From: a virus | Length of the DNA: 24,264 nucleotides | Virus record (IMG/VR): IMGVR_UViG_3300034522_000002 | Location: 1 to 24,264 of that record | Direction: 5' to 3' (one strand) | Shown: positions 866 to 22,730 of the stretch, one piece after another | Layout: every line of letters begins with the position of its first letter | Position numbering within the stretch: position 1 is the stretch's first letter | The notes under the pieces: generated by a model | What the model saw: only the letters and a program-made list of their open reading frames with translations | Databases searched by the model: none | Told to the model about the DNA's origin: nothing | Made by a program: the position numbers and the translations under genes

Positions 866-1212
866 TACTTGTACCTCATAACCAATAATCTCTGGGTTGA
901 GATTGCAGGAGCAGGAGATGCACTACTTGCGATATTTCGGTTAATAAACCATACCCTCACCAGCCCGCTTAAGACCTCCGGCTCTTGCTGTACCGCGTTA
1001 AGATCTTGCGAACTTTGATCGGCGGGATATGGAGATACAGGAATACAAACGGCATTACAACTTGCGGGATCGCAACCGGAAACTGCTATATCCAGATAGT
1101 TAGCGCCTGCCGGTCTAGTAACTAAACCAGAATATATAACCCTGACTGTGAACGAGGTCTCATCCAACTCTAGGAGGCCTGTAGGCCCCCACACTCTAGC
1201 GCCGAAACTCAT
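865..1212 (-). CDS. Small tail-tip-associated protein, 115 aa, function unknown
   Basis: The start chosen is the ATG at 1212, which overlaps the gpJ stop codon as ATGA. An upstream in-frame start at 1230 would intrude further into gpJ and is less likely. The protein starts MSFGARVWG and shows LDETSF and IYSG motifs, echoing MSYG, LDSEF and DYSG in the next gene; the two look like distant paralogues sharing an N-terminal domain. Two cysteines in DPASCNAVC (about residues 54-58) could form a disulfide or bind metal. No membrane segment is seen. Position directly after gpJ suggests a tail-tip or fibre-connecting component. No specific function can be assigned. Confidence 0.7.
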   Translation of the reverse strand: MSFGARVWGPTGLLELDETSFTVRVIYSGLVTRPAGANYLDIAVSGCDPASCNAVCIPVSPYPADQSSQDLNAVQQEPEVLSGLVRVWFINRNIASSASPAPAISTQRLLVMRYK

Positions 1213-4200
1213 GCGTCGAGATCTCCCCACTGATAACGCTTTACGCCAGCCGCATCGAACACCTTGCCGCCACGGTTGTTTATGACCTGGCGAGCCTGGC
1301 CCCCGAACGAACCGTTGATTTCAAACGTCCCATCGAAGAAAAGCTTCCACCCCGTCTGGCCAGCGACATAGTTGTTAGACTGGATGTAGTTGCCGATCTT
1401 GGCGTTGGTGATAGTGCCGTCCTGGATGAATGCAGCCTTGATGAAGGTCTGCCCACCCTGCACAGCGAACGGCACCGTACCAGCCTGCCCGATGGCGAAA
1501 AGGTCTGCGTCGATGACGAACTTCGACTGCAGGCCACCCGGCCCGTTCTCCAGTCCCAGGCCCACCCCTGCCCACTTGTATACTCCCGTAGCGGACTCGT
1601 ACTGCAGTCGCACCGACCAGTTCAGCGTCACCTTTCCGTTCACTGCTTGGATAGCCGTGGCATTGGTCTGGATCGCCGCGGTATTACCGTTGAGCGTTGT
1701 CTTAACGGTTTCGATGCTGGACGACAGGGCGCCGTCGGCATTAATGCGTGCGGTTTGCTCGCTGACGATCGCCGCAGCGTTAGCCGCAACGCTGGCCTCC
1801 ACCACATCCGTGCGCTGGCCCTGCGCCAGGTCGCCCTCAATGAGTGCGGACTGTGTTGACCAGACCCCGACGTAGCTAGCTTCCGACCCCATCAGCGCAC
1901 TGTCGTCACCCTGAAGCGGCGGGTTGACCTGCAGGTAAATGCCGTCGACCCGCTGCGCCGTGGTGGTTACCTTTCCATCAAGCGTGGTCACCGTGGCCTT
2001 GAGGGTACTCAGCCCGCTGGCCGTTGCGGTGACGCCGGTGACAGGATCGTTCACCGTGGTCTTCACCGCGTTCAGCTGCGAGGCCTGGGCGGTGATGTCC
2101 TGGCCGTGCTGGTTAATCGTCGCCGAGTTCTGCTGAACCTGGGTCACTAGAGCGTTGACCGTCTGCGTGACTGTGCCGATGTCGGTCCAATAGGTGGCGT
2201 TCGGCGGCGGGTTGTTCGCCGGCACCGCGCCATTGGCCTGGTACAGGTGCTGGCCCACGCGAACGATTTCGTTCAGCGCGTACGCCTTGGATGGCACGTA
2301 CTCCAGCGCATCCACCACCTCCCCGATCAGCTGCTCCAGCTCATCCTTGGCCGCGTCAATGCGACCGTTCACCGAGCCTGGCCCGTTTCCGTCGATCAGG
2401 TCGATTCGATCCTTCAGGTGCTGACCAAGGGCGGTTTCGTCAATCTGCCCTTTGATCTGCTCAAGGATCGGCCCAGCATCCGAGCTGGCCTGGCCCATAA
2501 CGCCATTCACAACCGGATAGAACGGCCCGATGTTGCCGGTGCGGTCCACCAAGCGCGCCCAGAAGAACAGGGTTGCGCCCGCCAGCAGCGACTGCATGCG
2601 GTAATCGGCCTGCGGATACGCCAGGTCGGCCAACTTGGTCGCCGCCGCCAGGTTGTTCGCCGGGCCATACCACAATTCCGTGCGCTGGGTATCCTCGGCA
2701 CCGGCAGGGAAGCCCCACTTGATGCCGATGCCGAACAGTTCGCTGGTGGTGGTCAGGAACGACACCGCCGGCGGCAACCCGACCTTTCCTTCCAGATTGG
2801 TTAGGTTGGAGTTCTTCCAGATCGAGGAAATCTCGAAGGCGCTGACCGACCGCACGCGCGCCAGGTAGGCGCCCGAGTAAATGCCGGTGACGTCAACGCT
2901 CGTTGAGCCCGTGCGCTGCACCTTGATCCAGTTTCCGTTGTCCTTGCGCCACTCCACGTCGTACGCCACGGCACCGGTAACGGCTGGCCACGAGATGTTC
3001 ATGGTGCTGATGGCCAGGCCCTGGTCGATCGATACGTTCGAAGTAATGGTCACGCTGGCCGGCGCCGGAACCACGGTGATTGGGATCACGCTGATTGGGC
3101 GTTCTTCCAGGCGCGCGCCGGTGTCGATGCTGGGAAACTTACTTGGCTCGTACTGCAAGGCGCTGATGTCGTAATCGCCCTCAGGCGTACGTGCGGTCCT
3201 CATCACTCTATATAGAGGGATTGCCAGGTCGTCCGCATCGATCGCCCACTGAAGCTGTTCAGCAGGCGCCTCGCTGTAGGCTACGGTCACGGTTACGTTG
3301 CGGCCGCTCACACTCTCTACGGTGCGCCCTTCTGCGTGCCCGCCTGGGAGGTTGATCACCAGCCGGTCGCCAGCCTTGGCCATGGTGTCGCGATCCAGGG
3401 TGATGACCTTGCCCGCCGCCGCCGCGATTCGCCCACCGATCTCCCGGCCAGCCAGCAGCGAGTCGGCAACAGGGATAATGAACCCTGGCAGCGGGATGCG
3501 GCCTTCCATGCCGGTCCTGAAGCTGATGGTGCGGTCCTGGTTATTGCTCAGTACCAGCCATTTAGCGCGGCGCTGGGCCTCGGATACACGAGTGCAGCCT
3601 ATTGCACTGATCTCCGTCGGCTTGTCGCCCAGGCGACGCTGGAGCGGCAGGTCGGAATAGACCGTGACGTCGGTGTCGTAGTTGTTCAGCGGGTTGTCGT
3701 AGCTGACCAGGCAGCGAGTGAAGCGGGTTTTCGCCGAGGCGCTGCCGTAGGATATTTTGCCGTCGATTACGTTGGACCGGGTGAAGACGTAATCGATGTC
3801 TTGTGAACGAGGCATATCAGCCTGCATGACCAGCTGACCCTGGGCCCAGTACGTCATGCCGCGGTAAATGCCAGCGATGTCACGCAGCAGGGACCAGGCG
3901 TCGGCCTTTCCCTGCAGGTTCATGTCGCACAGGAAACGCGGCTCAACGCCGTCCGCACCATTGGGCACCATCTGGTCGCAGTATTGCGCGATGCGGTACA
4001 GCTCCCACTTGTCCACCATCCACGGCTTGATGCGGCGGCCCAGGCCAAAACGGTCTTGGGTGCAGATTCCGTAGGTGATCCAGGCTGGGTTATTGGTCCA
4101 GGCCTCTTTCATGGTGCCGTCCCAGGCGCCGGTGTACGTGCGGGCCACTGGGTCGTAGTTACTCGGAACCTGCCAGCGACGGGCCTTGCACTTCACGGTC

Positions 4201-4934
4201 ACGGCCGGGATGTTGGTGAACTGCTCGGCGTCGAATTCAACGAACAGCAATGCAGTGTTCGGATAGCGCAGCTTGGCGTCGATCACCTGGGTGTAGCCGG
4301 CGATGAAGAGGCTGTCCGCGATCTTGTCGGTGTTCTGGTTTGGGGTTATGCGGCGAACCCGGATCAGCCAGCCGCTGGTTGCTGGCGGCAGATCGATACG
4401 CAAGGAGCGCTCGTAGCGGGTGGTGGTCTTACCCGACATAGCTCCTACCAGAACTTCCTGATAGGCACCCCCGTCGGTAGCAACATCCACTGCGTATTGA
4501 ATCGTGTAGCCGTTAATGTTTCCTTCGCTGTCCTGGCTCGCGAGGCGCGGCGTGGCCAAGCGGATGCGAGTTGCCGAGAGCTGAAGATTAGTAATCGACT
4601 GCACCCATGGTGCCCCGCTGCGCAGCTCGATGTTCAGCGAGGTTTCGTTGTCGACAGATGGAATACCCGGGATGTAGGTCTGCTCCACAGAACCTGGGCG
4701 CCACTCCCACTTGACGTTCGTGAAGTTGAAATTACCGCTGGCATCCTGGATAGGAGTGTTGTCGAGGAAGATGTCGCGCGCAGTTGGCGTGCCGTCGAAT
4801 TCACCCTCGCCAACGGCGATCAGAATCTTGGCCACGTTGGTGGAGCGCAGGCTGTCGGGCGCCTCTACGGGTGCCTTTGGCTTGGTCTCGCCACCTTTGG
4901 CACCGTTAATATCCAGCTTCTGTGCTGCGCCCAT
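1209..4934 (-). CDS. J: Tail tip host-specificity protein, lambda gpJ homologue
   Basis: This 1241-aa protein is close to the length of lambda gpJ (about 1130 aa) and occupies the same slot after K and I. gpJ forms the trimeric tail tip that binds the host receptor. The N-terminal two-fifths carries typical gpJ sequence, including the WDGTMKEAWTNNPAWI and RFGLG stretches near residues 270-300. A fibronectin III-like segment follows at about 620-700 and a short aromatic module (AYALNEIVRVGQHLYQAN) near 880-895 that resembles carbohydrate-binding modules. Predicted coiled-coil repeats (about 920-1090) precede a DUF1983-like C-terminal domain (FAVQGGQTFI, AFIQDGTITNAKIGN). The ATG at 4934 has GGAGG five bases upstream. 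An intrinsic terminator sits directly before this ribosome binding site. Confidence 0.93.
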   Translation of the reverse strand: MGAAQKLDINGAKGGETKPKAPVEAPDSLRSTNVAKILIAVGEGEFDGTPTARDIFLDNTPIQDASGNFNFTNVKWEWRPGSVEQTYIPGIPSVDNETSLNIELRSGAPWVQSITNLQLSATRIRLATPRLASQDSEGNINGYTIQYAVDVATDGGAYQEVLVGAMSGKTTTRYERSLRIDLPPATSGWLIRVRRITPNQNTDKIADSLFIAGYTQVIDAKLRYPNTALLFVEFDAEQFTNIPAVTVKCKARRWQVPSNYDPVARTYTGAWDGTMKEAWTNNPAWITYGICTQDRFGLGRRIKPWMVDKWELYRIAQYCDQMVPNGADGVEPRFLCDMNLQGKADAWSLLRDIAGIYRGMTYWAQGQLVMQADMPRSQDIDYVFTRSNVIDGKISYGSASAKTRFTRCLVSYDNPLNNYDTDVTVYSDLPLQRRLGDKPTEISAIGCTRVSEAQRRAKWLVLSNNQDRTISFRTGMEGRIPLPGFIIPVADSLLAGREIGGRIAAAAGKVITLDRDTMAKAGDRLVINLPGGHAEGRTVESVSGRNVTVTVAYSEAPAEQLQWAIDADDLAIPLYRVMRTARTPEGDYDISALQYEPSKFPSIDTGARLEERPISVIPITVVPAPASVTITSNVSIDQGLAISTMNISWPAVTGAVAYDVEWRKDNGNWIKVQRTGSTSVDVTGIYSGAYLARVRSVSAFEISSIWKNSNLTNLEGKVGLPPAVSFLTTTSELFGIGIKWGFPAGAEDTQRTELWYGPANNLAAATKLADLAYPQADYRMQSLLAGATLFFWARLVDRTGNIGPFYPVVNGVMGQASSDAGPILEQIKGQIDETALGQHLKDRIDLIDGNGPGSVNGRIDAAKDELEQLIGEVVDALEYVPSKAYALNEIVRVGQHLYQANGAVPANNPPPNATYWTDIGTVTQTVNALVTQVQQNSATINQHGQDITAQASQLNAVKTTVNDPVTGVTATASGLSTLKATVTTLDGKVTTTAQRVDGIYLQVNPPLQGDDSALMGSEASYVGVWSTQSALIEGDLAQGQRTDVVEASVAANAAAIVSEQTARINADGALSSSIETVKTTLNGNTAAIQTNATAIQAVNGKVTLNWSVRLQYESATGVYKWAGVGLGLENGPGGLQSKFVIDADLFAIGQAGTVPFAVQGGQTFIKAAFIQDGTITNAKIGNYIQSNNYVAGQTGWKLFFDGTFEINGSFGGQARQVINNRGGKVFDAAGVKRYQWGDLDA

Positions 4935-7429: not shown

Positions 7430-10400
7430 TTACCTTCCGTTGATCAGGCGCCAGATTGAGCCGCCAGGTTGCAACCCTTTGGAAATAGCGGTTTCTGCCT
7501 CGGTCTTGGCGGCCTGCTGGATACCCTTGCCAAGCTGCGTGGTGTCTTCCTGAGTTGCGTTGCCGCCAACGCCTGCCGTTTGCACGGACACCGACACGGG
7601 GAAGTTGTAGGTGTTTCCACCCCCGCCACCGCCTGCCGCCGCCATGATCGAACTGCCGCCCGTCATTAATGGCGTGACGCTGCCACCCTGAGCGCCAGTC
7701 ATGAGGTACGACCGGCCACCCTGACTGAACAGCTCGGGCCCCTTTTCGTTTACCTCATAGAGCGTGTTCGGATCGACAGGCCCACCTGACGCCCTGCCCT
7801 CTACAAGAGCGCTGCCGATGCTGGAGCCGAAACTACCAGCGCCTGCGCCCGCCGCGGCACCGCCGCCAAACCAAGCGCCGATGGCAGTGCCCGCCAGGCT
7901 CGACAGCAAGCCGGACGCCGCCTGCCGAGTTGCGATACGCGCCATGTCGGCGATGATCGACTTGGCGAAGTCGGAGAACGATAGCTTCCCGGTCATGGCG
8001 AAGTTGACGACCGCATCCTCCATGCTGCTGAAAGCATTGCTGAACAGACTTTTTGTCTGCCCAGCGATGTTTTGAGCAGAGTCAAGATAGTTCTCCCAAG
8101 CTGCTGAGGCGCCTTTTGTCCAATCGCCCTGTGCCGCCTCAACATCCGCATAGTTCTGCCGGATCTGGTCAGTGGCGGCCTTGTTCGCGTCTGCGAGCGC
8201 CTGCGACTTACGCTTGAACTCTTCCTCAGACATGTTTCGCGACGGGTCGGAGCGCTGATTTTCCAGCTCGAGCGACTGCTGAGCAAACCGGTCTTGCTGG
8301 CTGTTCAGTTGCCCGTTCAATGCGTTCTGACGATCACCCTGGCCCACGCCCAATACTGCGCGCTGCCCAGCAAGCTCCAGCGCACGCTGTTGCTGACTCA
8401 GCGCCTGCACGTAGGAGCTGATTGCCCGCTCCTGCTTGGCGAGTCTCCCGGTCTCGTTGGTAGCCAGTACTTCAAGCTGGCTATCCGCGTCCTTCTGCGC
8501 CTTGACCATCCCTGCGCGTGCGTCAGCGATCTTCTGGTCCAGCTGGATGCTTTGCGCGGCTGTAGTGGTCTTCTTGCCCTGTGCAGCTTCAAGGGCAGCA
8601 ATCTCGGCTTCGTAGCCGGCGGTAACTTCATCCTTTTCGGCGCGGATCAAAACTGCACGCTGTGTCGCGTAATCAGCTTGCGAGATCAGACCGGCCTTCT
8701 GCGCGGCGTCCAACTGCTTCTGGGTATTGGCGTATTCGTCCTGAATGCCCTTGAGTGCGTTCTGCGCATCGTTGTATGCCGTGAGGTCTACAGCGCTGGC
8801 CGAAGCGGTTTTAGGGTCCTTGTTCTTGTCCTTGATGTTCTGCAGGGTTTTGGCGACATAGTCGGCCTGGACCTTGGGATCATCAGGGTTCGCCTTTTTC
8901 AGCACCTCGACGTCGCGCAAATACGCTTTGGTCAGCTTGTCTCGCTTCTCGGCATTGCTCAGCGTTGAGTCGCTGATTTGTTTGAGGCGCTGCCCAGCAG
9001 CAATGCCCTCCTTCTGGATTCGCGCCTGCTCCCCCAGGTAACCCGTTTTCGATTTCTCGGCTTCAATCTGAAGCTCGAGTAGATTAAGGGCAGCCTGGTC
9101 CTTGGCGGTGTCTCTGGTTTCCAGGCCAAGAGCAGCAGCCCGGCCGCCCTTTCCTCGATTGTTTGTAAGACGATCCCTGATCGCCTGGGCCTGCTCCTCC
9201 ATGGTGAGTGCTCGACCGACATTAAATGTCGCGTCCAGCGCTCCGGCTGCGGCGTCTTTGATGCCTTTCCAAGCTCGCTCTATCAGTCCGAGATTCTGGG
9301 TAATTTCACCACTTCGGGTTTGAATAGTTTCTGCGTAAGCCTTTGTCAGCAGGTCGGCTGCACCTACGGTATCGCCCTGTTCCTTCAACGCGACGATCTG
9401 CGAGTAGACGGAGGCTGTGAGGAAGTTGTACTGGTCGTTCAGTTCCTTTGCGGCCGCAACGGGATCCTTTGCGATCTTGACGAACTCAGCAATGGTTGCG
9501 TCGACTGACTTTCCGGTTGCGTCTTCCATGGCCGCGGCTGCCTCGGCGATAATGCCGAAACTCTCGCCCGCCACCACCCCGCTACCCGCCAGCTTGGCGA
9601 GTGAGGCGGCAGCCTCGCCCGTGGTGCCATTCGTAGCGCTGACTTGGCGGGCCAGGCTTGCGATCTGATCAGCCGAGGTGCCGGCATAGTTGCCGGTGAG
9701 GATCAGTGCCTTGTTGTACTCGTCAGCCTCCTGGCTGCCCTTGTTGTATCCATAAATCAGAGTGCCGATGACCGCTGCAACAGCCGCCACCGCGGCGACC
9801 ATGCCAAGGATGCTCATGGAGGCGCCGGTTACCGCCGGAGGGAGCGCACCATATGCTTTCTTGGCGTTCTCCGCCGCTTCTGCCGCCGTGTTCGAGCTTT
9901 CAGCCAGGCCCGACAGGCTTTCGCTTGCCTCACCAGCGTTCTCGGCGGTGTCCTTTGCTCCCGAGGCAATACCTGCGAGGGATTCGCCCAGCACCGCAGC
10001 ACCGGCGCCACCTGAAAATAACGAACGGAACTTGTCTTTCAGGGCGTCCATCGTCGGGCCAATGCCGCCGAAAGAGTCCTTGATCTGGCCGCCCTGCTGG
10101 ATTAGCACCATCAGTGGGTTCTGACCGCCCGCCAGGCTGGTGAAGATGTCCGTGAACTGCGCAGGTAATTGCCGAAGCGCCGCCTGCGTCTGCCCCGAAC
10201 TAATTCCGGTTTTCCGAAGCCCCTCATCGAATTCGCCCAGCTTCTGCCGGGATGCGTCGATGCGTGTCGAGTACTCGCGGAAGGTGTCGGCATCAATGAC
10301 GCCGGCGGCCTTGTACTTCTGCAGCTGGGCCTGCTGCTGATCGAGCTTGTCGAGCGCGGCCATTGTTGGGTTGAGCTTGCCGAGCAGTTCTTGCAGGCCC

Positions 10401-10840
10401 TCGGCCTGTACGCCCGTCGCCGCGGCGGCCTTCTTGGTTGCCTCGGCCTGGCGATCAGTCGATCCAACAAGCGCATCCGATTCAGCCTGCAAGCGACGCT
10501 GAAGCGAAGCCAGGCTGCTTACCGACGATCCCGACGACTCCATGGCGGAAGCGTTGGTGCTCACGCTGGTGGTCAGGCGCTGGTAATACTCGCTCGACTC
10601 CAGGGAAGCCTTTGCCGTTGCCAGAAGGCGGGCTTTGGCCTCTTCGAGCGTCTCGGAAAGCTTGCGCTCAGACGCCGACAGGTCCGCCGTTGCGGTCGCC
10701 GCCTTGTCGAAGCCAGCAGCCACTCCATCAGCAGCCTTCTCGGCGCGTCCGCCGGCAGCGGTAAGCTTGTCAAGATCGGTGCTTGCCTGCGCAGCATCCG
10801 TCGAATCGACCTTAATGCCGAGCTCAGCAATCGACGTCAT
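7430..10840 (-). CDS. H: Tape measure protein, lambda gpH-like
   Basis: This 1136-aa, alanine- and glutamine-rich, mostly helical protein is the tail length ruler. It starts with the usual TMP opening (ELGIKVDSTDAAQASTDLDK) and has long coiled-coil stretches. A prophage tape-measure domain is centred on residues 200-270 (QFTDIFTSLAGGQNPLMVLI). A strong hydrophobic segment lies at about 341-364 (GMVAAVAAVAAVIGTLIYGY) and a glycine/alanine-rich one near 960-1000. The lambda-type C-terminal domain contains the YEVNEKGPELF and GGRSYLM motifs. At roughly 0.15 nm per residue the tail would be about 170 nm long, an estimate only. GGAG precedes the ATG at 10840, directly after an intrinsic terminator. 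Confidence 0.95.
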   Translation of the reverse strand: MTSIAELGIKVDSTDAAQASTDLDKLTAAGGRAEKAADGVAAGFDKAATATADLSASERKLSETLEEAKARLLATAKASLESSEYYQRLTTSVSTNASAMESSGSSVSSLASLQRRLQAESDALVGSTDRQAEATKKAAAATGVQAEGLQELLGKLNPTMAALDKLDQQQAQLQKYKAAGVIDADTFREYSTRIDASRQKLGEFDEGLRKTGISSGQTQAALRQLPAQFTDIFTSLAGGQNPLMVLIQQGGQIKDSFGGIGPTMDALKDKFRSLFSGGAGAAVLGESLAGIASGAKDTAENAGEASESLSGLAESSNTAAEAAENAKKAYGALPPAVTGASMSILGMVAAVAAVAAVIGTLIYGYNKGSQEADEYNKALILTGNYAGTSADQIASLARQVSATNGTTGEAAASLAKLAGSGVVAGESFGIIAEAAAAMEDATGKSVDATIAEFVKIAKDPVAAAKELNDQYNFLTASVYSQIVALKEQGDTVGAADLLTKAYAETIQTRSGEITQNLGLIERAWKGIKDAAAGALDATFNVGRALTMEEQAQAIRDRLTNNRGKGGRAAALGLETRDTAKDQAALNLLELQIEAEKSKTGYLGEQARIQKEGIAAGQRLKQISDSTLSNAEKRDKLTKAYLRDVEVLKKANPDDPKVQADYVAKTLQNIKDKNKDPKTASASAVDLTAYNDAQNALKGIQDEYANTQKQLDAAQKAGLISQADYATQRAVLIRAEKDEVTAGYEAEIAALEAAQGKKTTTAAQSIQLDQKIADARAGMVKAQKDADSQLEVLATNETGRLAKQERAISSYVQALSQQQRALELAGQRAVLGVGQGDRQNALNGQLNSQQDRFAQQSLELENQRSDPSRNMSEEEFKRKSQALADANKAATDQIRQNYADVEAAQGDWTKGASAAWENYLDSAQNIAGQTKSLFSNAFSSMEDAVVNFAMTGKLSFSDFAKSIIADMARIATRQAASGLLSSLAGTAIGAWFGGGAAAGAGAGSFGSSIGSALVEGRASGGPVDPNTLYEVNEKGPELFSQGGRSYLMTGAQGGSVTPLMTGGSSIMAAAGGGGGGNTYNFPVSVSVQTAGVGGNATQEDTTQLGKGIQQAAKTEAETAISKGLQPGGSIWRLINGR

Positions 10841-16570: not shown

Positions 16571-17533
16571 TCAGGATACTGGCGGGGTGATTTCGTCGAG
16601 GTACGCCACGGCGCCCGGCAGACGAATCTCGGTACCGCCGGTACGGGCGATGATCCCGGTTTCGAAGCCCATGATGGACTTCTGGCGCGGGGCCAGGACG
16701 CGGCGCGGCATTGGCAGGTGGAAGCGAACCACTTCCGGGTCCTTGCGGTACGCAACCAGACGACCACCACCATCCTGCGAAGCGTTCCGGGCTTCGCGCA
16801 GTGGCGCGATGTCCAGCGGCAGCCCGGTCTCGGCGGTGTAGATGTTGTTGCGGCGCATGTATTCCAGCACCGTCATGAAGCCATCGCCAGCGCCCATGCG
16901 CTTGGTTGCCACGGCGCGGAATGCGTCAGGCGGCATGCGCAAGGTATCCGCCCACTCGACTTCACCGGTGTTGGTGCGGATGCTGCCCAGCAAGCCGTTC
17001 ACGTCAGCCATGATCAGGTCGACGTCTTTGGCGGACCAGTAGGTCGAACCAGCAGTGCCGGACGCAGCGGCGTCAACACGCGAAACGTTGCTGTCGTTCA
17101 ACAGTCCGGTCCAGTGCTTCTCAACACTGCCAGTGAAGGCAATGCTGTTCAGCAGGCGCTCAACCTTGTCGGCGGCCGAATCAGCCTTGGTGCCGCTCAG
17201 GTTGATGCCGTACAGCTGTGCCTGGTTCACTTCTTCCAGGTTCCATTCCCAGCCGGAGCCGATCATGGCAAAGTCGTGCGATGCCTGGTCGTGCGTTGCC
17301 GAGTTGAACGGCATGTCAGTGCCCGAGCCCGATAGGAACTTGGCTTCACCGGCAGTATCGACGGTGAAGAACGTGGTGCCGATGGCCCATGGAGCGCCTT
17401 CAGTGACCACTGGAATGCTCGCGGCGTAGTTAAACGTCGGGTAGCGGCGGGTGTAGATGCGCGTTTCGATGTTCCGGCCCTGGGCCAGAACGAACGGGAA
17501 CGCCGACTGAGCGTCTTCGAAAGCTTGAGGCAT
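16571..17533 (-). CDS. Major capsid protein, DUF2184 family
   Basis: The ATG at 17533 is preferred: it is one base after the upstream stop with GGAG eight bases before it. A GTG at 17584 would overlap the cement gene by 50 bases. The 320-aa product starts MPQAFEDAQSAFPFVLAQGR and contains ETRIYTRRYPTFNYA, GWEWNLEEVNQAQLYG and RMPPDAFRAV, matching DUF2184-type HK97-fold capsid proteins. It builds the icosahedral shell. Position after protease/scaffold and cement genes confirms the call. Confidence 0.92.
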   Translation of the reverse strand: MPQAFEDAQSAFPFVLAQGRNIETRIYTRRYPTFNYAASIPVVTEGAPWAIGTTFFTVDTAGEAKFLSGSGTDMPFNSATHDQASHDFAMIGSGWEWNLEEVNQAQLYGINLSGTKADSAADKVERLLNSIAFTGSVEKHWTGLLNDSNVSRVDAAASGTAGSTYWSAKDVDLIMADVNGLLGSIRTNTGEVEWADTLRMPPDAFRAVATKRMGAGDGFMTVLEYMRRNNIYTAETGLPLDIAPLREARNASQDGGGRLVAYRKDPEVVRFHLPMPRRVLAPRQKSIMGFETGIIARTGGTEIRLPGAVAYLDEITPPVS

Positions 17534-17534
17534 G

Positions 17535-18014
17535 TTAAGCGCTCCGATGTTTGAGGGAGATTTCAACGATGTCGCCGTTCGCACCGGTGGTGTCGAAAAT
17601 GGCGCCAGGGATCAACACCGCGCCTTCAGCGGCGGTCGTGACGTAGCGATTGGTCGCGGCGACGTAGTACACGTCATCACCAGGCACTACAGCTGCGCCG
17701 GCGGTTACGTACATCTGGCCATCGGTCATGAACGCGCCGGTGAAGTCTCGCGGGTAGCCGTCGATCAGAGTGGAACCGGTCGCCACAGGCGGTACGGCTG
17801 CGCTCAGCACAGCCAGGCCCAGGAACAGGGTGCCAGTGGCGGCGATCTTGTGATCGTTGCCAGCACCAGCCACACGGAAGCCAGGCGCGCCGAAGACAAT
17901 GCCTTCGGCGTTCGAGACGGTGCGACTGATCTTGTTGCACTTCTCTTCGTTGGCGACCAGGCCGGGCACGCCCTTGGCTGGAGCGTTGGTGTACGTGGTT
18001 TGGTAAGTAGCCAT
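17535..18014 (-). CDS. Structural cement (decoration) protein, gp24-like
   Basis: The 159-aa protein begins MATYQTTYTNAPAKGVPGLV and has a small-residue, beta-rich sequence (DGQMYVTAGAAVVPGDDVYY, GAVLIPGAIFDTTG). This fits the structural cement protein family found before DUF2184-type capsid genes; such proteins bind on the capsid surface and stabilise it. AAGGAG lies seven bases before the ATG at 18014. It is one base away from the capsid gene, so both are probably made together at high level. Confidence 0.82.
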   Translation of the reverse strand: MATYQTTYTNAPAKGVPGLVANEEKCNKISRTVSNAEGIVFGAPGFRVAGAGNDHKIAATGTLFLGLAVLSAAVPPVATGSTLIDGYPRDFTGAFMTDGQMYVTAGAAVVPGDDVYYVAATNRYVTTAAEGAVLIPGAIFDTTGANGDIVEISLKHRSA

Positions 18015-18024
18015 GGTGTGCTCC

Positions 18025-18579
18025 TTATGCTTTCGGCAGGTGGGCGGTTTGCATGTCCGAAATCATCTTCAGCCGTGCTTTTTCCGAATCATCACCACCG
18101 GCAGCGCTGTCCTGGTGGATCATGTGCTGGCGGAATGGGTCATTGGCCGGGTTCTTGGCAGCGTCTTCTACCAGGATCTCGAAGCGGGCATCGATGTAGG
18201 CGTCAGCCTTGCCCGTTACGGCCGCATCACCCAGCTTGGCGATGACCACGGCCTTGCGGATCTCGGCGTCGGTCTTGCCGGTGTAGTCGGCGTCGGCGAT
18301 GGCCTTGGCTTTGCTGAGCAGGTCGGCGCGGGCAGTTACGCGCTTGTCGATATCGGAGTCACTGATCACGGCCGCCTTCAGCTTGGTGATCTCGTCGTCT
18401 TTCTTCGCCAGTTCGCCGTCCTTCAGCGCGATTGCAGTGGCGTGCGCGTCGGTCAGGGTCTTGGTGGCATTGGCAGCATCGGCAAGCTTGGTATTCAGCT
18501 TCTCGATGGCCTGGGCGCCTTGCTCGGTGACATCAATGGAGATGCCATCGACAAGGAGTTTTCGCAGTGCATCAGCCAT
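18025..18579 (-). CDS. Nested in-frame scaffold protein (predicted)
   Basis: An ATG at 18579 lies in frame inside the DUF2213 gene (codon 193) and has AAAGGAGG at 18594-18587, a near-perfect Shine-Dalgarno with a 7-base spacer. The 184-aa product starts MADALRKLLVDGISIDVTEQ and is helical with a predicted coiled coil (ELAKKDDEITKLKAAV), fitting a scaffold. It shares its stop with the full gene. This is the same arrangement as lambda C/Nu3, where scaffold is needed in excess over protease. The start is inferred from sequence only. Confidence 0.72.
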   Translation of the reverse strand: MADALRKLLVDGISIDVTEQGAQAIEKLNTKLADAANATKTLTDAHATAIALKDGELAKKDDEITKLKAAVISDSDIDKRVTARADLLSKAKAIADADYTGKTDAEIRKAVVIAKLGDAAVTGKADAYIDARFEILVEDAAKNPANDPFRQHMIHQDSAAGGDDSEKARLKMISDMQTAHLPKA

Positions 18580-19155
18580 GTCATGGCCTCCTTTGGGGGT
18601 GTCTGGTTTGTGGTCACCGATGCGAAGATCGATGCCGCCCCGAGCGCGATGCTCAAGGCTGAGGTGGTTCATTTTCATGGGGCCGAGGTAGCAGTCGTAC
18701 TGCTCGCCGTCGCCGGTTACTCCATCCTGGAACACGACTTCGGCGCCGTAGCCCATGGACAGCTCACGCTTGCCTGACTCGTAGTCAGCAATGGCCTTGG
18801 CATCCATCAGCACCAGGGGCACCTTGACGAACTGCCCGTCACGGACAACCTCGCCACCGGTCTGGCCGATCGCAACGTCCTTCCAGTTCTTGGAATTGAC
18901 GCCATCGCCGCCCGGGTGCCCGTTGGTCATTGGTCGGTATGCGTACGAGTGCATGGCGTCGGCGTGGAACACCGCGCTTTCGGGCCGGTACACGCGCACA
19001 ATTGGCTTATCGCGCAAGCCGTGCTCGTTGTCAGGGTCAATCTCGGTACCCAGGTAATCCTGAATGCCGGTGCGCGCCACCCTTGCCTCGGCCACCAGGT
19101 AACCGTCCTCGGTGCGCCGTACGCCCGTGACTGGCACGGAGTCGGTAAAGATCAT
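18025..19155 (-). CDS. Capsid maturation protease with C-terminal scaffold, DUF2213 family
   Basis: The 376-aa protein has two parts. Residues 1-185 match the DUF2213 phage family: GVRRTEDGYLVAEARVARTG, FHADAMHSYAYRPMTNGHP, GKRELSMGYGAEV and GPMKMNHLSL. His80, Ser133 and His164 are the most likely active-site residues by analogy with S78-type prohead proteases (inference). Residues 193-376 are charged, helical and alanine/lysine-rich, as in scaffolding proteins. A strong internal start at residue 193 suggests the scaffold is also made alone, as in lambda C/Nu3. The start at 19155 overlaps the portal stop as ATGA. Confidence 0.85.
   Translation of the reverse strand: MIFTDSVPVTGVRRTEDGYLVAEARVARTGIQDYLGTEIDPDNEHGLRDKPIVRVYRPESAVFHADAMHSYAYRPMTNGHPGGDGVNSKNWKDVAIGQTGGEVVRDGQFVKVPLVLMDAKAIADYESGKRELSMGYGAEVVFQDGVTGDGEQYDCYLGPMKMNHLSLEHRARGGIDLRIGDHKPDTPKGGHDMADALRKLLVDGISIDVTEQGAQAIEKLNTKLADAANATKTLTDAHATAIALKDGELAKKDDEITKLKAAVISDSDIDKRVTARADLLSKAKAIADADYTGKTDAEIRKAVVIAKLGDAAVTGKADAYIDARFEILVEDAAKNPANDPFRQHMIHQDSAAGGDDSEKARLKMISDMQTAHLPKA
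18587..18594 (-). promoter_or_regulatory. Internal Shine-Dalgarno for the nested scaffold start
   Basis: AAAGGAGG on the minus strand, seven bases before an in-frame ATG at 18579. It is among the strongest ribosome binding sites in the window and lies exactly at the boundary between protease and scaffold regions. Confidence 0.75.
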
Positions 19156-20957
19156 GGGTCGAGTTCCTCGAAGATCTCAGGACCCAGCTCGATCGCGCCA
19201 CGGTATGGCTCAACCTTGTCGATATCGACACTGCCGGGTTCGTAGGTGAAGGTGATGTGCGGCTGGTAGTCCGGCCAATCCCAAGACGCGCCAGCCTCAA
19301 CGATGGTGACGTGACGCCAAGCCAGCTCGGAGCTGTTGAACAGCAGCACCACCGCGCCTTCGCCGAACTTGTCGATGAGCCGGGCACCGCCTGGTGCAAT
19401 CTTCAGCTCACCCTTGCCATCACCCGACCAGGACTCGCCGACCTTCATCCAGTCAACAGGCGAGCGGCTGTAGGCGACGGTGACATGCAGATCCTCAACC
19501 GGGACCGTGAATTCAAACCCCTGCGACTTGGCCCAGGCGATGATTTCGGCACCGTTGGTGACCTTGCGGGACACGTACAGCGTGCGCGGCGCGGCGTCGG
19601 AAAGGGCTTTCTTGTCCGCTACCGCATCCCCTTCACTTACCGGAAGATCGTCATCACCTGCTCCACCCTCTTCGTCCGGAAGCTCGGCGCCGAACTGGTC
19701 GATGGCCGCTTCCAGCCCAGGCATCACGCTCAGCTCCACCAGAAGATTCACCGATGCAGCTGAGAGCGCATCATCAGGGAACAGGCCCGAGTCCTTCAGC
19801 GCCTTGATGGTGTCCGCCGTGGTCTTGCCGATGTCTGCCCGCTCCTTGGCCGTGGCCTGCCATAGAGGAGCCCAGGCGTAGTGGATCTCCTTGGGCCGGA
19901 CGCCCAGTGCCGAACGGATCAAGCACTCATCCAGCACGCCCATGGACGGCTTGATCTCCAGCTTTTGGCGCGATGCGACGTTGTCGTAGTAGTTGCGGGT
20001 GTTCTCTTCGCCGTTGGCGCCCAGACCGGTGGAAGACTGACCGAACATGCGCGTTCCAGGGATATCGAACGCGCCAGACACGCCTTGCTCCGTCTTGGCT
20101 ATCACCTCAGGCAGATTGCCGAAGCTGGCCGACTTGGAGCTGTGGGTTTCATTGCCGTCGAGGATCAACGTGCCATTGATGCCCTTGGCTGTAGCAGCAA
20201 GGCGCAAGCGCTCCAGCAGCAAGCGCTCGTAGTTCTTGTCCTGCATGCTCGTCATCAGGTTTGGGATGTTGATGACGTCGATCTTGGCCTCGTAGACCAG
20301 GCTTACCACGTTGGCCACCGTCTCGTCGTAGTGACGCACGGCAGGCATAGCGGCCAGCAGCACCGAGTCACCCCATCCAAAGCCAGTGCCGATCGCCAGC
20401 TCAGGGTCAGGGTGCGGCGTGCCGATGAAGATGACCAAGCGCGACGGGTGGATCTCCACCACGCTGCCCGGCAGCCGGTAAGCCTTGGGCTTGCCAAAGC
20501 GAGGGCTTTGCGGGTCCTGTTCGATCTCGGTCGCGCTGAGTTGCCGGCGAGTCATGACGGTGAGGTACTTCACGCCACCCTGCCGCACGCGCTCAGGGTT
20601 AAGCTCGGATGCCGTGTCTCGCTCCCCGGTGCCGATGAATACAGCAGCACCACCGAACAGTCGGGCCTTCAATAGGGCCTCAAGGATCTTGCCCTTGACG
20701 TTCAGGCGATCTTCCTCGGCTTCGATCAGCTCGATCTGGGCCTTGTCAGCCTGCCAGCTGCGCCAGTTGCGGCATGCGTCCACCGCGGGGATGGTCACGC
20801 CCTTCTGCGCAGTCCACGAGCCACGGAAGGCGTTCAGGAGCTGATGGTCGTCCATCTCCGGGATGGCATAGTGCGAGTGGGATGCCTTGTCGCGAGCAGT
20901 ACCCAGTCCTGCGACCAGGTTCTGCAGGCTGTCTTTCAGGTAGCTGAATGCGCTCAT
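19152..20957 (-). CDS. Portal protein (DUF1073 type) fused to an Acb1-like 2H phosphoesterase domain
   Basis: The 601-aa protein follows TerL (ATGA overlap) and precedes the protease, the portal slot. Residues about 30-420 fit a DUF1073-type portal (ALLKARLFGGAAVFIGTG, GWGDSVLLAAMPAVRHYDET, GTRMFGQSSTGLGANGEENT). An acidic linker (about 425-456) leads to a C-terminal domain of about 145 aa, near the 152 aa of T4 Acb1. That domain has the two HxT motifs of 2H phosphoesterases: H491-V-T493 in LHVTVAYS and H567-I-T569 in PHITFTY. Acb1 degrades cyclic oligonucleotide signals of CBASS immunity. NCBI already names some DUF1073 proteins after Acb1, so the link has precedent; activity here is inferred. 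Confidence 0.88.
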   Translation of the reverse strand: MSAFSYLKDSLQNLVAGLGTARDKASHSHYAIPEMDDHQLLNAFRGSWTAQKGVTIPAVDACRNWRSWQADKAQIELIEAEEDRLNVKGKILEALLKARLFGGAAVFIGTGERDTASELNPERVRQGGVKYLTVMTRRQLSATEIEQDPQSPRFGKPKAYRLPGSVVEIHPSRLVIFIGTPHPDPELAIGTGFGWGDSVLLAAMPAVRHYDETVANVVSLVYEAKIDVINIPNLMTSMQDKNYERLLLERLRLAATAKGINGTLILDGNETHSSKSASFGNLPEVIAKTEQGVSGAFDIPGTRMFGQSSTGLGANGEENTRNYYDNVASRQKLEIKPSMGVLDECLIRSALGVRPKEIHYAWAPLWQATAKERADIGKTTADTIKALKDSGLFPDDALSAASVNLLVELSVMPGLEAAIDQFGAELPDEEGGAGDDDLPVSEGDAVADKKALSDAAPRTLYVSRKVTNGAEIIAWAKSQGFEFTVPVEDLHVTVAYSRSPVDWMKVGESWSGDGKGELKIAPGGARLIDKFGEGAVVLLFNSSELAWRHVTIVEAGASWDWPDYQPHITFTYEPGSVDIDKVEPYRGAIELGPEIFEELDP

Positions 20958-22234
20958 TGGTTGCTCACGTTTGCGAGTGTGTAGCTGCCCGCAATCGGGA
21001 AGCGCTGGACAATGAAGTAGCCGAGTGCATCGACCGGGTCTTCAGTGCCGTCCTTGTTGGGTTCGCCGTTTTCGTTGTATGCCTGCTGTTCCAGCACCTG
21101 GGTGGTGACCGGGCAGTTGTCGGTGTTCACCAGGTAGCGGCGCTTCTGCTCGATGTTCAGGAACATGGCGTTCACGGCTAGTACCCGATCTCGCACCATG
21201 GGGTTGGATGGGTTCACCATCACCATGAAGCCGGCGGCGCGGAGCAGGCTGTGGTCCGACTCGCTGCCGTTCACGCTCTTGCGGTTCTTGCCGCTGGCGT
21301 CCGGATATACCGTGATGCTGTGCCCCGGAAAGCGGCGCTTCAGCTCGACGATCATCGCCGGCGTGTCGAACAGGCTTGTGGCCTCTTCCAGCAGCATGGG
21401 CAGACCGTCGCGGATGACGTGGATCGTCGCTGCCATCCTGTTGATGTTGAAGTCCATGCCGACGTGCAACTGTTCGCCTGGGCGGATGGTTGCGTCCGTG
21501 TGGTTCTGCTTGCGGCAGAAGCTTGGGTACACGCTGCCAGACGTCAGGTTGACGAATAGACCGTCGATGTACGCGTCTACCAGGTTCGCCGGGTAAGACT
21601 TGCGCAAGGACGGAATGTAGTCCTTCGGTAGGTTCTTAGCGTTCTGTCGCGTGGAGGCATGCACTATCCCGTAAAACTGTCGCTGCGACGGGTCGGCGGC
21701 CAGTTCCTTGACGAACTTGCGATATACCCAGTTGAAGCCCTCGGGCGTCGTCGTAACATCGATGGTGTTCTGCTCGCGCCCAGGCCAAACGGTGGACATC
21801 CGCGCAATGATCTTCTTCCAAGCGCTGTCGGCCTTCTTGATCGGCATGCAGTCGATCTCGTCGACCAGCGCATGAGCGATGTTGAAACCCACGATGCGGT
21901 GCGGGTGCTCCATGCTCTTGCAGATGATCGTCGAAAGGCAGCGGCCCTTCTTGTCTCGCAAATACACGCGCTTGTTACTGGCAACGATGTCGGCGAACAG
22001 CCCGAAGGCCTCAGCAACCCCCGGCAGGGTGTCGTAGAAGATGTCGGTTATCTGCGGGTAGGTCGGAGCAAAGTAGCCCTGGGGGATGCCCGGAAATTCC
22101 AGCGCGTTGATGCACATGCGCACACAGCCAACGAACGTCTTGCCGCTGCGGTAGCCCCCAACGAAGGCCATGAACTTGTTGTGGCTCTTGATGAACTCAA
22201 ATTGAGGCTTGTTCAGCATCAGGATCGCTTGCAT
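20954..22234 (-). CDS. terL: Terminase large subunit
   Basis: The 426-aa packaging motor is taken from the ATG at 22234; a TTG two codons earlier is possible. Walker A is GGYRSGKT (residues 26-33) and Walker B ends in LVDEID with Asp125 and Glu126. The nuclease domain shows VGMDFNI (Asp261), VYPDASG (Asp312) and DPVDALGYF (Asp399, Asp402), the acidic residues expected of an RNase H-like terminase nuclease. All key residues look intact. It overlaps TerS by 38 bases and the portal by ATGA. Whether the phage packages by cos or headful cannot be decided here. Confidence 0.95.
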   Translation of the reverse strand: MQAILMLNKPQFEFIKSHNKFMAFVGGYRSGKTFVGCVRMCINALEFPGIPQGYFAPTYPQITDIFYDTLPGVAEAFGLFADIVASNKRVYLRDKKGRCLSTIICKSMEHPHRIVGFNIAHALVDEIDCMPIKKADSAWKKIIARMSTVWPGREQNTIDVTTTPEGFNWVYRKFVKELAADPSQRQFYGIVHASTRQNAKNLPKDYIPSLRKSYPANLVDAYIDGLFVNLTSGSVYPSFCRKQNHTDATIRPGEQLHVGMDFNINRMAATIHVIRDGLPMLLEEATSLFDTPAMIVELKRRFPGHSITVYPDASGKNRKSVNGSESDHSLLRAAGFMVMVNPSNPMVRDRVLAVNAMFLNIEQKRRYLVNTDNCPVTTQVLEQQAYNENGEPNKDGTEDPVDALGYFIVQRFPIAGSYTLANVSNQ

Positions 22235-22730
22235 CTTCAACCCCGATGATTACTTGCTTAGGCTCGGGCAGGCCCTTATCCGGGTCCTCCAGTTCGCGCT
22301 GCAACTTCTGGATGTTCAGCCGCTTGATCTCATCGTCCAGCGACTTGTCTGGTTCCACGCGGCGATTGACGAAAGCGTCACCCATCTCCTTGGCGGCCTG
22401 CTCCAGGATCTGCATAGCCAGACCGATGTTCTTCATCGTCTCGGCCTTCTCCACGAAACGATTCATGGCGCGGAGTCGATAAGCTCGGTTGGCTATGGGT
22501 ATCTCTGCGGTTTGCTCACGGAAACGCTTGCGAGTGTCGTGGAACAGGGTTTGCCATTTGAGTGCCAGATGGGAGCCAGCACGCTTTGTGGGGTCGTGCT
22601 GCTCTACCTGCTGGCGGGTCACGTCCACGTCGAATTCTTGCTTCACCGCCTGTGAGACCTGGCTCGGCGTGTCGAAACAGGCCAAAGCCTGAACGATGAA
22701 GCTCTTCACCTCATTTTTCAGGGCTGCCAT
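22197..22730 (-). CDS. terS: Terminase small subunit, DUF2280 family
   Basis: The 177-aa product starts MAALKNEVKSFIVQALACFD and has a helix-turn-helix-like N-terminus (TPSQVSQAVKQEFDVDVTRQ), then a helical oligomerisation part (FVEKAETMKNIGLAMQILEQ) and an acidic tail. This fits DUF2280 small terminases, which bind the packaging site on phage DNA and load the large subunit. It lies directly upstream of TerL and overlaps it. The ribosome binding site is weak, so expression may depend on coupling from upstream translation. Confidence 0.88.
   Translation of the reverse strand: MAALKNEVKSFIVQALACFDTPSQVSQAVKQEFDVDVTRQQVEQHDPTKRAGSHLALKWQTLFHDTRKRFREQTAEIPIANRAYRLRAMNRFVEKAETMKNIGLAMQILEQAAKEMGDAFVNRRVEPDKSLDDEIKRLNIQKLQRELEDPDKGLPEPKQVIIGVEDASDPDAEQASI

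Follow-up and report, generated by a model that had tools for sequence, protein, structure and literature searches.

An Acb1-type phosphoesterase domain at the C-terminus of a phage portal protein, variably present and apparently exchanged among close relatives

Why should a portal protein, an essential part of the phage head, end in a domain related to the anti-CBASS nuclease Acb1? The question is raised by the stretch of 24,264 nucleotides analyzed here (the window), which derives from a relative of Pseudomonas phage phiPSA1 (best match among named phages, with portals 85% identical). Acb1 has so far been studied as a free enzyme, and a version fused to essential head parts links counter-defense with virion assembly. 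The portal gene is found in the order terminase-portal-protease-cement-capsid, as expected for a DUF1073-type portal (PF06381), and its stop codon overlaps the start of the DUF2213 protease-like gene in an ATGA. We will refer to Table 1 for all coordinates of these features. The window also holds two further long ORFs on the minus strand, at 1209-4934 (1241 aa) and 7430-10840 (1136 aa).

Table 1. Features of the portal locus and of its fusion protein, and loci carrying the domain on head proteases.
Feature	Position	Strand	Basis
Portal protein with C-terminal Acb1-type domain, 601 aa	19152..20957	-	PHROG 146 portal 1.1e-140; 8hds Pam3 portal 534 bits
Terminase large subunit, upstream of portal	20954..22240	-	PF03237/PF17289
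Head maturation protease-like gene, downstream of portal	18025..19155	-	PF09979 DUF2213
Cement protein	17535-18014	-	gene order
Major capsid protein	16571-17584	-	gene order
Portal fold, residues 39-385	19803..20843	-	PF06381 Phage_portal_3 / DUF1073, E 1.7e-90; TIGR01555
Acidic linker, residues 430-456, fast-evolving	19590..19670	-	dN/dS 0.37 among near relatives
Acb1-type 2H phosphoesterase domain, residues 457-601	19155..19589	-	PF23474, AlphaFold2, Foldseek, dN/dS
First HxT motif, H491-V-T493	19479..19487	-	aligned homologues
Second HxT motif, H567-I-T569	19251..19259	-	aligned homologues
498-bp stretch, 48 bp instead in domain-less relatives (net 150 codons, in frame)	19170..19667	-	L036/L037
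Loci with the Acb1 domain N-terminal on head proteases	L193:9992-11104, L346, L332, L303:3992-4834, L194, L195, L198		

The first-pass annotation, made from the letters of the window, had described an Acb1-like domain at the portal C-terminus, set off from the portal fold by an acidic linker. Both parts of this description hold. Residues 458-600 match the Acb1 profile PF23474 (E 6.2e-44, 149.7 bits against a curated cut-off of 27), and a single-sequence phmmer search of the PDB with the domain, freed of its portal part, recovered solved Acb1 (7t26, E 9.3e-12) as well as the portal of cyanophage Pam3 (8hds, 4.5e-35). On sequence, the Acb1 match of the portal C-terminus is far beyond chance. The linker is real, with boundaries at about the residues listed, and evolves fast. 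Directly ahead of the domain it contains no ATG, GTG or TTG codon that could serve as an internal start, and a separate small product comprising the domain is therefore unlikely.

An AlphaFold2 model of the domain, based on 34 homologues, reached a pLDDT of 92.5 and a pTM of 0.86; a model from a shallow alignment (pLDDT 70.5) was left aside. Foldseek comparison of this model with a PDB library gave 7t26 as the best match (E 3.5e-10, TM 0.72/0.76), then 7t27, followed by the Burkholderia phage BCSR5 phosphodiesterase 9q2y and E. coli LigT, and in a viral-model library, "Anti-CBASS protein Acb1" is the name of many of the named matches. The comparison with Acb1 suggested at first pass thus ended in a 2H fold that is closest to solved Acb1. 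The Pam3 portal shares the two-domain architecture from end to end (8-600, 534 bits), but its second motif reads HIS and it retains the lid tryptophan discussed below. As its structure has 12 chains, the earlier supposition of twelve copies per portal is reasonable. The sequence of the Pam3 chain contains the Acb1 domain, yet Foldseek matched none in the coordinates of this portal, which means that the domain is disordered, cut off or not modelled there.

The two HxT motifs of the window domain, H491/T493 and H567/T569, are 76 residues apart, as had been pointed out, and their counterparts in FBB1 Acb1 are 70 apart. Both motifs are near-invariant in 201 distinct domain sequences, and this conservation extends across every partner protein. 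The second motif, which never served as a search pattern, has H in 201/201 sequences and T in 181 (S in the remaining 20). The first has H in 200/201 and T in 201/201, a count biased by some scans that used this motif as a pattern; it is also present in 36/36 homologues that first came from a scan without this motif among its patterns. HVT at 549, a third motif of this kind, is not an active-site motif and was rejected. Y461, R548, D560 and E594 are kept in more than 97% of the 201 domains, and E597, the counterpart of Acb1 E141, is E in just 148 of them.

Hobbs et al. identified Y12, W74, F107 and W147 as the ligand-stacking residues of Acb1. Two of these have counterparts in the portal domain, Y461 for Y12 and W561 for F107, the latter position being aromatic or histidine in 200/201 domains. 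W74 is without a clear aromatic counterpart (A521 is the nearest aligned residue, in an unsure alignment; W503 is near-invariant in the virion-fused class), and this portal, which ends in EELDP, lacks the C-terminal lid that bears W147. A tryptophan near the lid position is found in 84/147 DUF1073-portal fusions, in 15/16 Mu-type fusions, and also in Pam3. In sum, the window domain shares with T4/FBB1 Acb1 (gene 57B) the 2H fold, the HxT/HxT tetrad, the PF23474 match, the Y12 equivalent and an aromatic residue at the F107 position, but differs in being fused to a portal, in an identity of about 30% and in having no clear W74 counterpart and no W147 lid. Judging from its residues, the portal-borne domain is likely to be active; its affinity or substrate may differ from T4 Acb1, since the W74 counterpart is unclear and the W147 lid is missing here.

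Is the domain needed by the portal that carries it? Among near relatives, the portal core has a dN/dS of 0.076 and the linker one of 0.369; with 0.117, the domain is under purifying selection. Searching with the portal part alone, we found 62 IMG/VR portals, 41 of them with the domain, 20 without it and one cut off. The domain is lacking in relatives with 82-97% identical portals, some reaching about 97% over residues 1-430. In L036/L037, the nucleotide match to the window gene is 92% up to gene base 1290 and resumes at base 1789 with 93-95%; the 498 bases are replaced by 48 in these relatives, and the reading frame is kept. The pairs L486/L487 and L444/L446 reveal the same in-frame presence/absence difference. 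No replacement module is found in the domain-less portals; the protease gene begins immediately or only a few bases further on. Presence or absence of the domain must have changed 12 times on the portal-core tree, and well-supported branches force at least 9 of these changes.

Domain and core also disagree in their similarities. L035 and L043 have distant cores (60% and 61% identity to the window portal) with close domains (91% and 85%), and in L033, L072 and L030 close cores of 87-90% identity are joined to domains of only about 70%. L045/L460, whose portal ORF continues into an unrelated tail where the contig stops and which is probably a truncated or chimeric contig, was set aside. By these sequence comparisons, the domain is dispensable for the portal and exchanged independently of the portal core. 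Its gain and loss in near-identical phages makes its role testable, and natural pairs differing here mainly by the domain (L036/L037 versus the window, L486 versus L487, L444 versus L446) make a clean CBASS-protection test possible.

The domain is not restricted to DUF1073-type portals. HK97-type portals (PF04860; Mesorhizobium, Methylosinus) and Mu-type portals (PF06074; Sphingomonas) likewise carry it at their C-terminus, and it is part of a portal-MuF protein (L281). Moreover, it forms the N-terminus of head proteases of the DUF2213 (Bosea and Neorhizobium prophages), Peptidase_S78 (Xanthobacter) and XkdF (L303) families. The DUF2213-protease fusions have a separate, domain-less portal upstream, which places the module at the junction of portal and protease, fused to one or the other. 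Some portals consist of three parts, with Acb1 and a PBECR3 nuclease following the portal in L326:1848-4223, and Acb1 and an ADP-ribosyltransferase-family domain in L408:2279-5557; L286 combines the Acb1 domain with ART-PolyVal. On the domain tree, the virion-fused members constitute a large group, separated by a long supported branch from the stand-alone proteins of T4 type. Among 385 sampled genomes from the class to which the Bosea locus L195 belongs, only two matches exceeded the cut-off, one being the genome of L195 itself, and three weak ones fell below it. Internal Acb1 domains were also observed in giant, polyvalent-like proteins of about 1800-2600 aa (L300, L284, L288, L342), of which L300 also has a helicase region and L284 a methyltransferase region.

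The kind of fusion as such is already known from Iyer et al. 2017 (PMC5512222), from the Acb1 name in Pfam, and from the Pam3 portal. Iyer et al. reported 2H-portal and 2H-MuF fusions and proposed that these degrade nucleotide signals of defense, so that the window portal shares with them both the 2H domain and a proposed role against nucleotide-activated defense. The statement of the first-pass annotation that the role of the domain on a portal is not settled is fair, but it passed over this proposal of 2017, which covers both the fusion and the counter-signaling role. The paper predates the characterization of Acb1, and its available portions include neither a presence/absence or exchange analysis nor a mention of head-protease fusions. 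As far as searches of the open-access literature go, no description exists of the presence/absence pairs, of the exchange of the domain or of its fusion to head proteases, and these searches found neither a study of a portal-borne Acb1 nor substrate data for portal-fused members. A related arrangement is given by the MuF toxins (PMC5576092), in which an effector domain is likewise joined to a portal-associated head protein whose gene adjoins the portal gene; there, however, MuF carries toxins, whereas here a portal carries what would be a signal-degrading enzyme.

With a confidence slightly better than even, we regard the domain as a dispensable, competent Acb1-type 2H phosphoesterase that is carried on the portal, made late, and cleaves a nucleotide immune signal. 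This reading rests on homology, fold, the conserved tetrad, purifying selection, modular gain, loss and exchange, and the position among packaging genes; activity, substrate, timing and place of action are what we infer. The domain would be an accessory on the portal C-terminus that is not needed to build the portal. Portals are generally expressed late, and thus the enzyme, made along with the late packaging genes, would appear at the start of head assembly, when CBASS-type responses set in. Such a late-made portal would fit the timing of T4 Acb1 and CBASS, as Hobbs et al. observed T4 Acb1 activity from about 15 min into infection, coincident with late CBASS onset. The site of action would be the cytoplasm, where portals are present as free subunits, rings and procapsids. 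Catalysis would be of the metal-independent acid-base type via H491/T493 and H567/T569, the most probable signal being a CBASS cyclic di- or trinucleotide that contains adenosine. The substrate may differ from that of T4-type Acb1 because of the long supported branch between the stand-alone and virion-fused members.

Alternatively, the domain may be a packaged effector, which resides inside the head with the portal, is perhaps freed there through cleavage by the prohead protease, and accompanies the DNA into the next host, where it would degrade immune signals as infection begins. We consider this possible but doubtful. The location is borrowed from the related E217 portal, whose C-terminal barrel extends into the head (PMC10329688). 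Along this line, the domain is present on other head-interior proteins (protease N-termini of the DUF2213, S78 and XkdF families, portal-MuF, the giant polyvalent-like proteins, and portals also bearing PBECR3 nuclease or ADP-ribosyltransferase domains), and its lack of a match in the Pam3 portal coordinates is what cutting or flexibility would give. Delivery into the host was also proposed for such fusions by Iyer et al. 2017 (PMC5512222) and in the MuF-toxin paper (PMC5576092). However, no cleavage site is demonstrated, twelve copies at most would be delivered, and CBASS responses start late and not at entry. Furthermore, portals are not ejected but remain with the capsid. Since an E217-type barrel faces the head interior and portals stay behind, delivery would need proteolytic release, and import with the particle, raised at first pass, is a weakly supported idea.

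An activity on RNA or another nucleotide, be it as RNase, 2',3'-cyclic phosphodiesterase or 2'-5' phosphoesterase, for RNA repair or against another defense, seems unlikely to us. Functions are broad across the 2H superfamily, LigT is among the further structural matches, PHROG 755 is annotated as RNA ligase, the ligand-stacking residues differ from those of T4 Acb1, and an RNase role is the first option offered by Iyer et al. 2017 (PMC5512222). Nevertheless, Acb1 is the closest family by a wide margin, both by solved structure and by sequence, and 3'3'-cGAMP and cAAA were cut by T4 Acb1 and all nine related proteins tested by Hobbs et al. A structural or binding domain devoid of enzyme function would be consistent with the location on a structural protein and the retention in many portals, but it is highly improbable, as the catalytic residues stay the same from one fusion partner to another and portals without the domain exist. 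Somewhere between these two we place the speculative and rather improbable notion that an anti-CBASS enzyme was repeatedly placed on the very head-assembly proteins that CBASS detects, such that tethering would destroy the signal at the place and time of its synthesis. Its basis is the reported interaction of the prohead protease of phage Bas13 with a CBASS sensor (Richmond-Buccola 2024, as cited in PMC12409349), together with the occurrence of the domain on three head-protease families and on three portal families encoded beside such proteases. If this holds true, the CBASS trigger becomes its own off-switch.

For annotation, it follows that the name "anti-CBASS protein" should be avoided for whole portals and "RNA ligase" for this domain. 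The latter label is attached to PHROG 755, the phage family matching this domain, and likewise to many gp57B homologues in GenBank.
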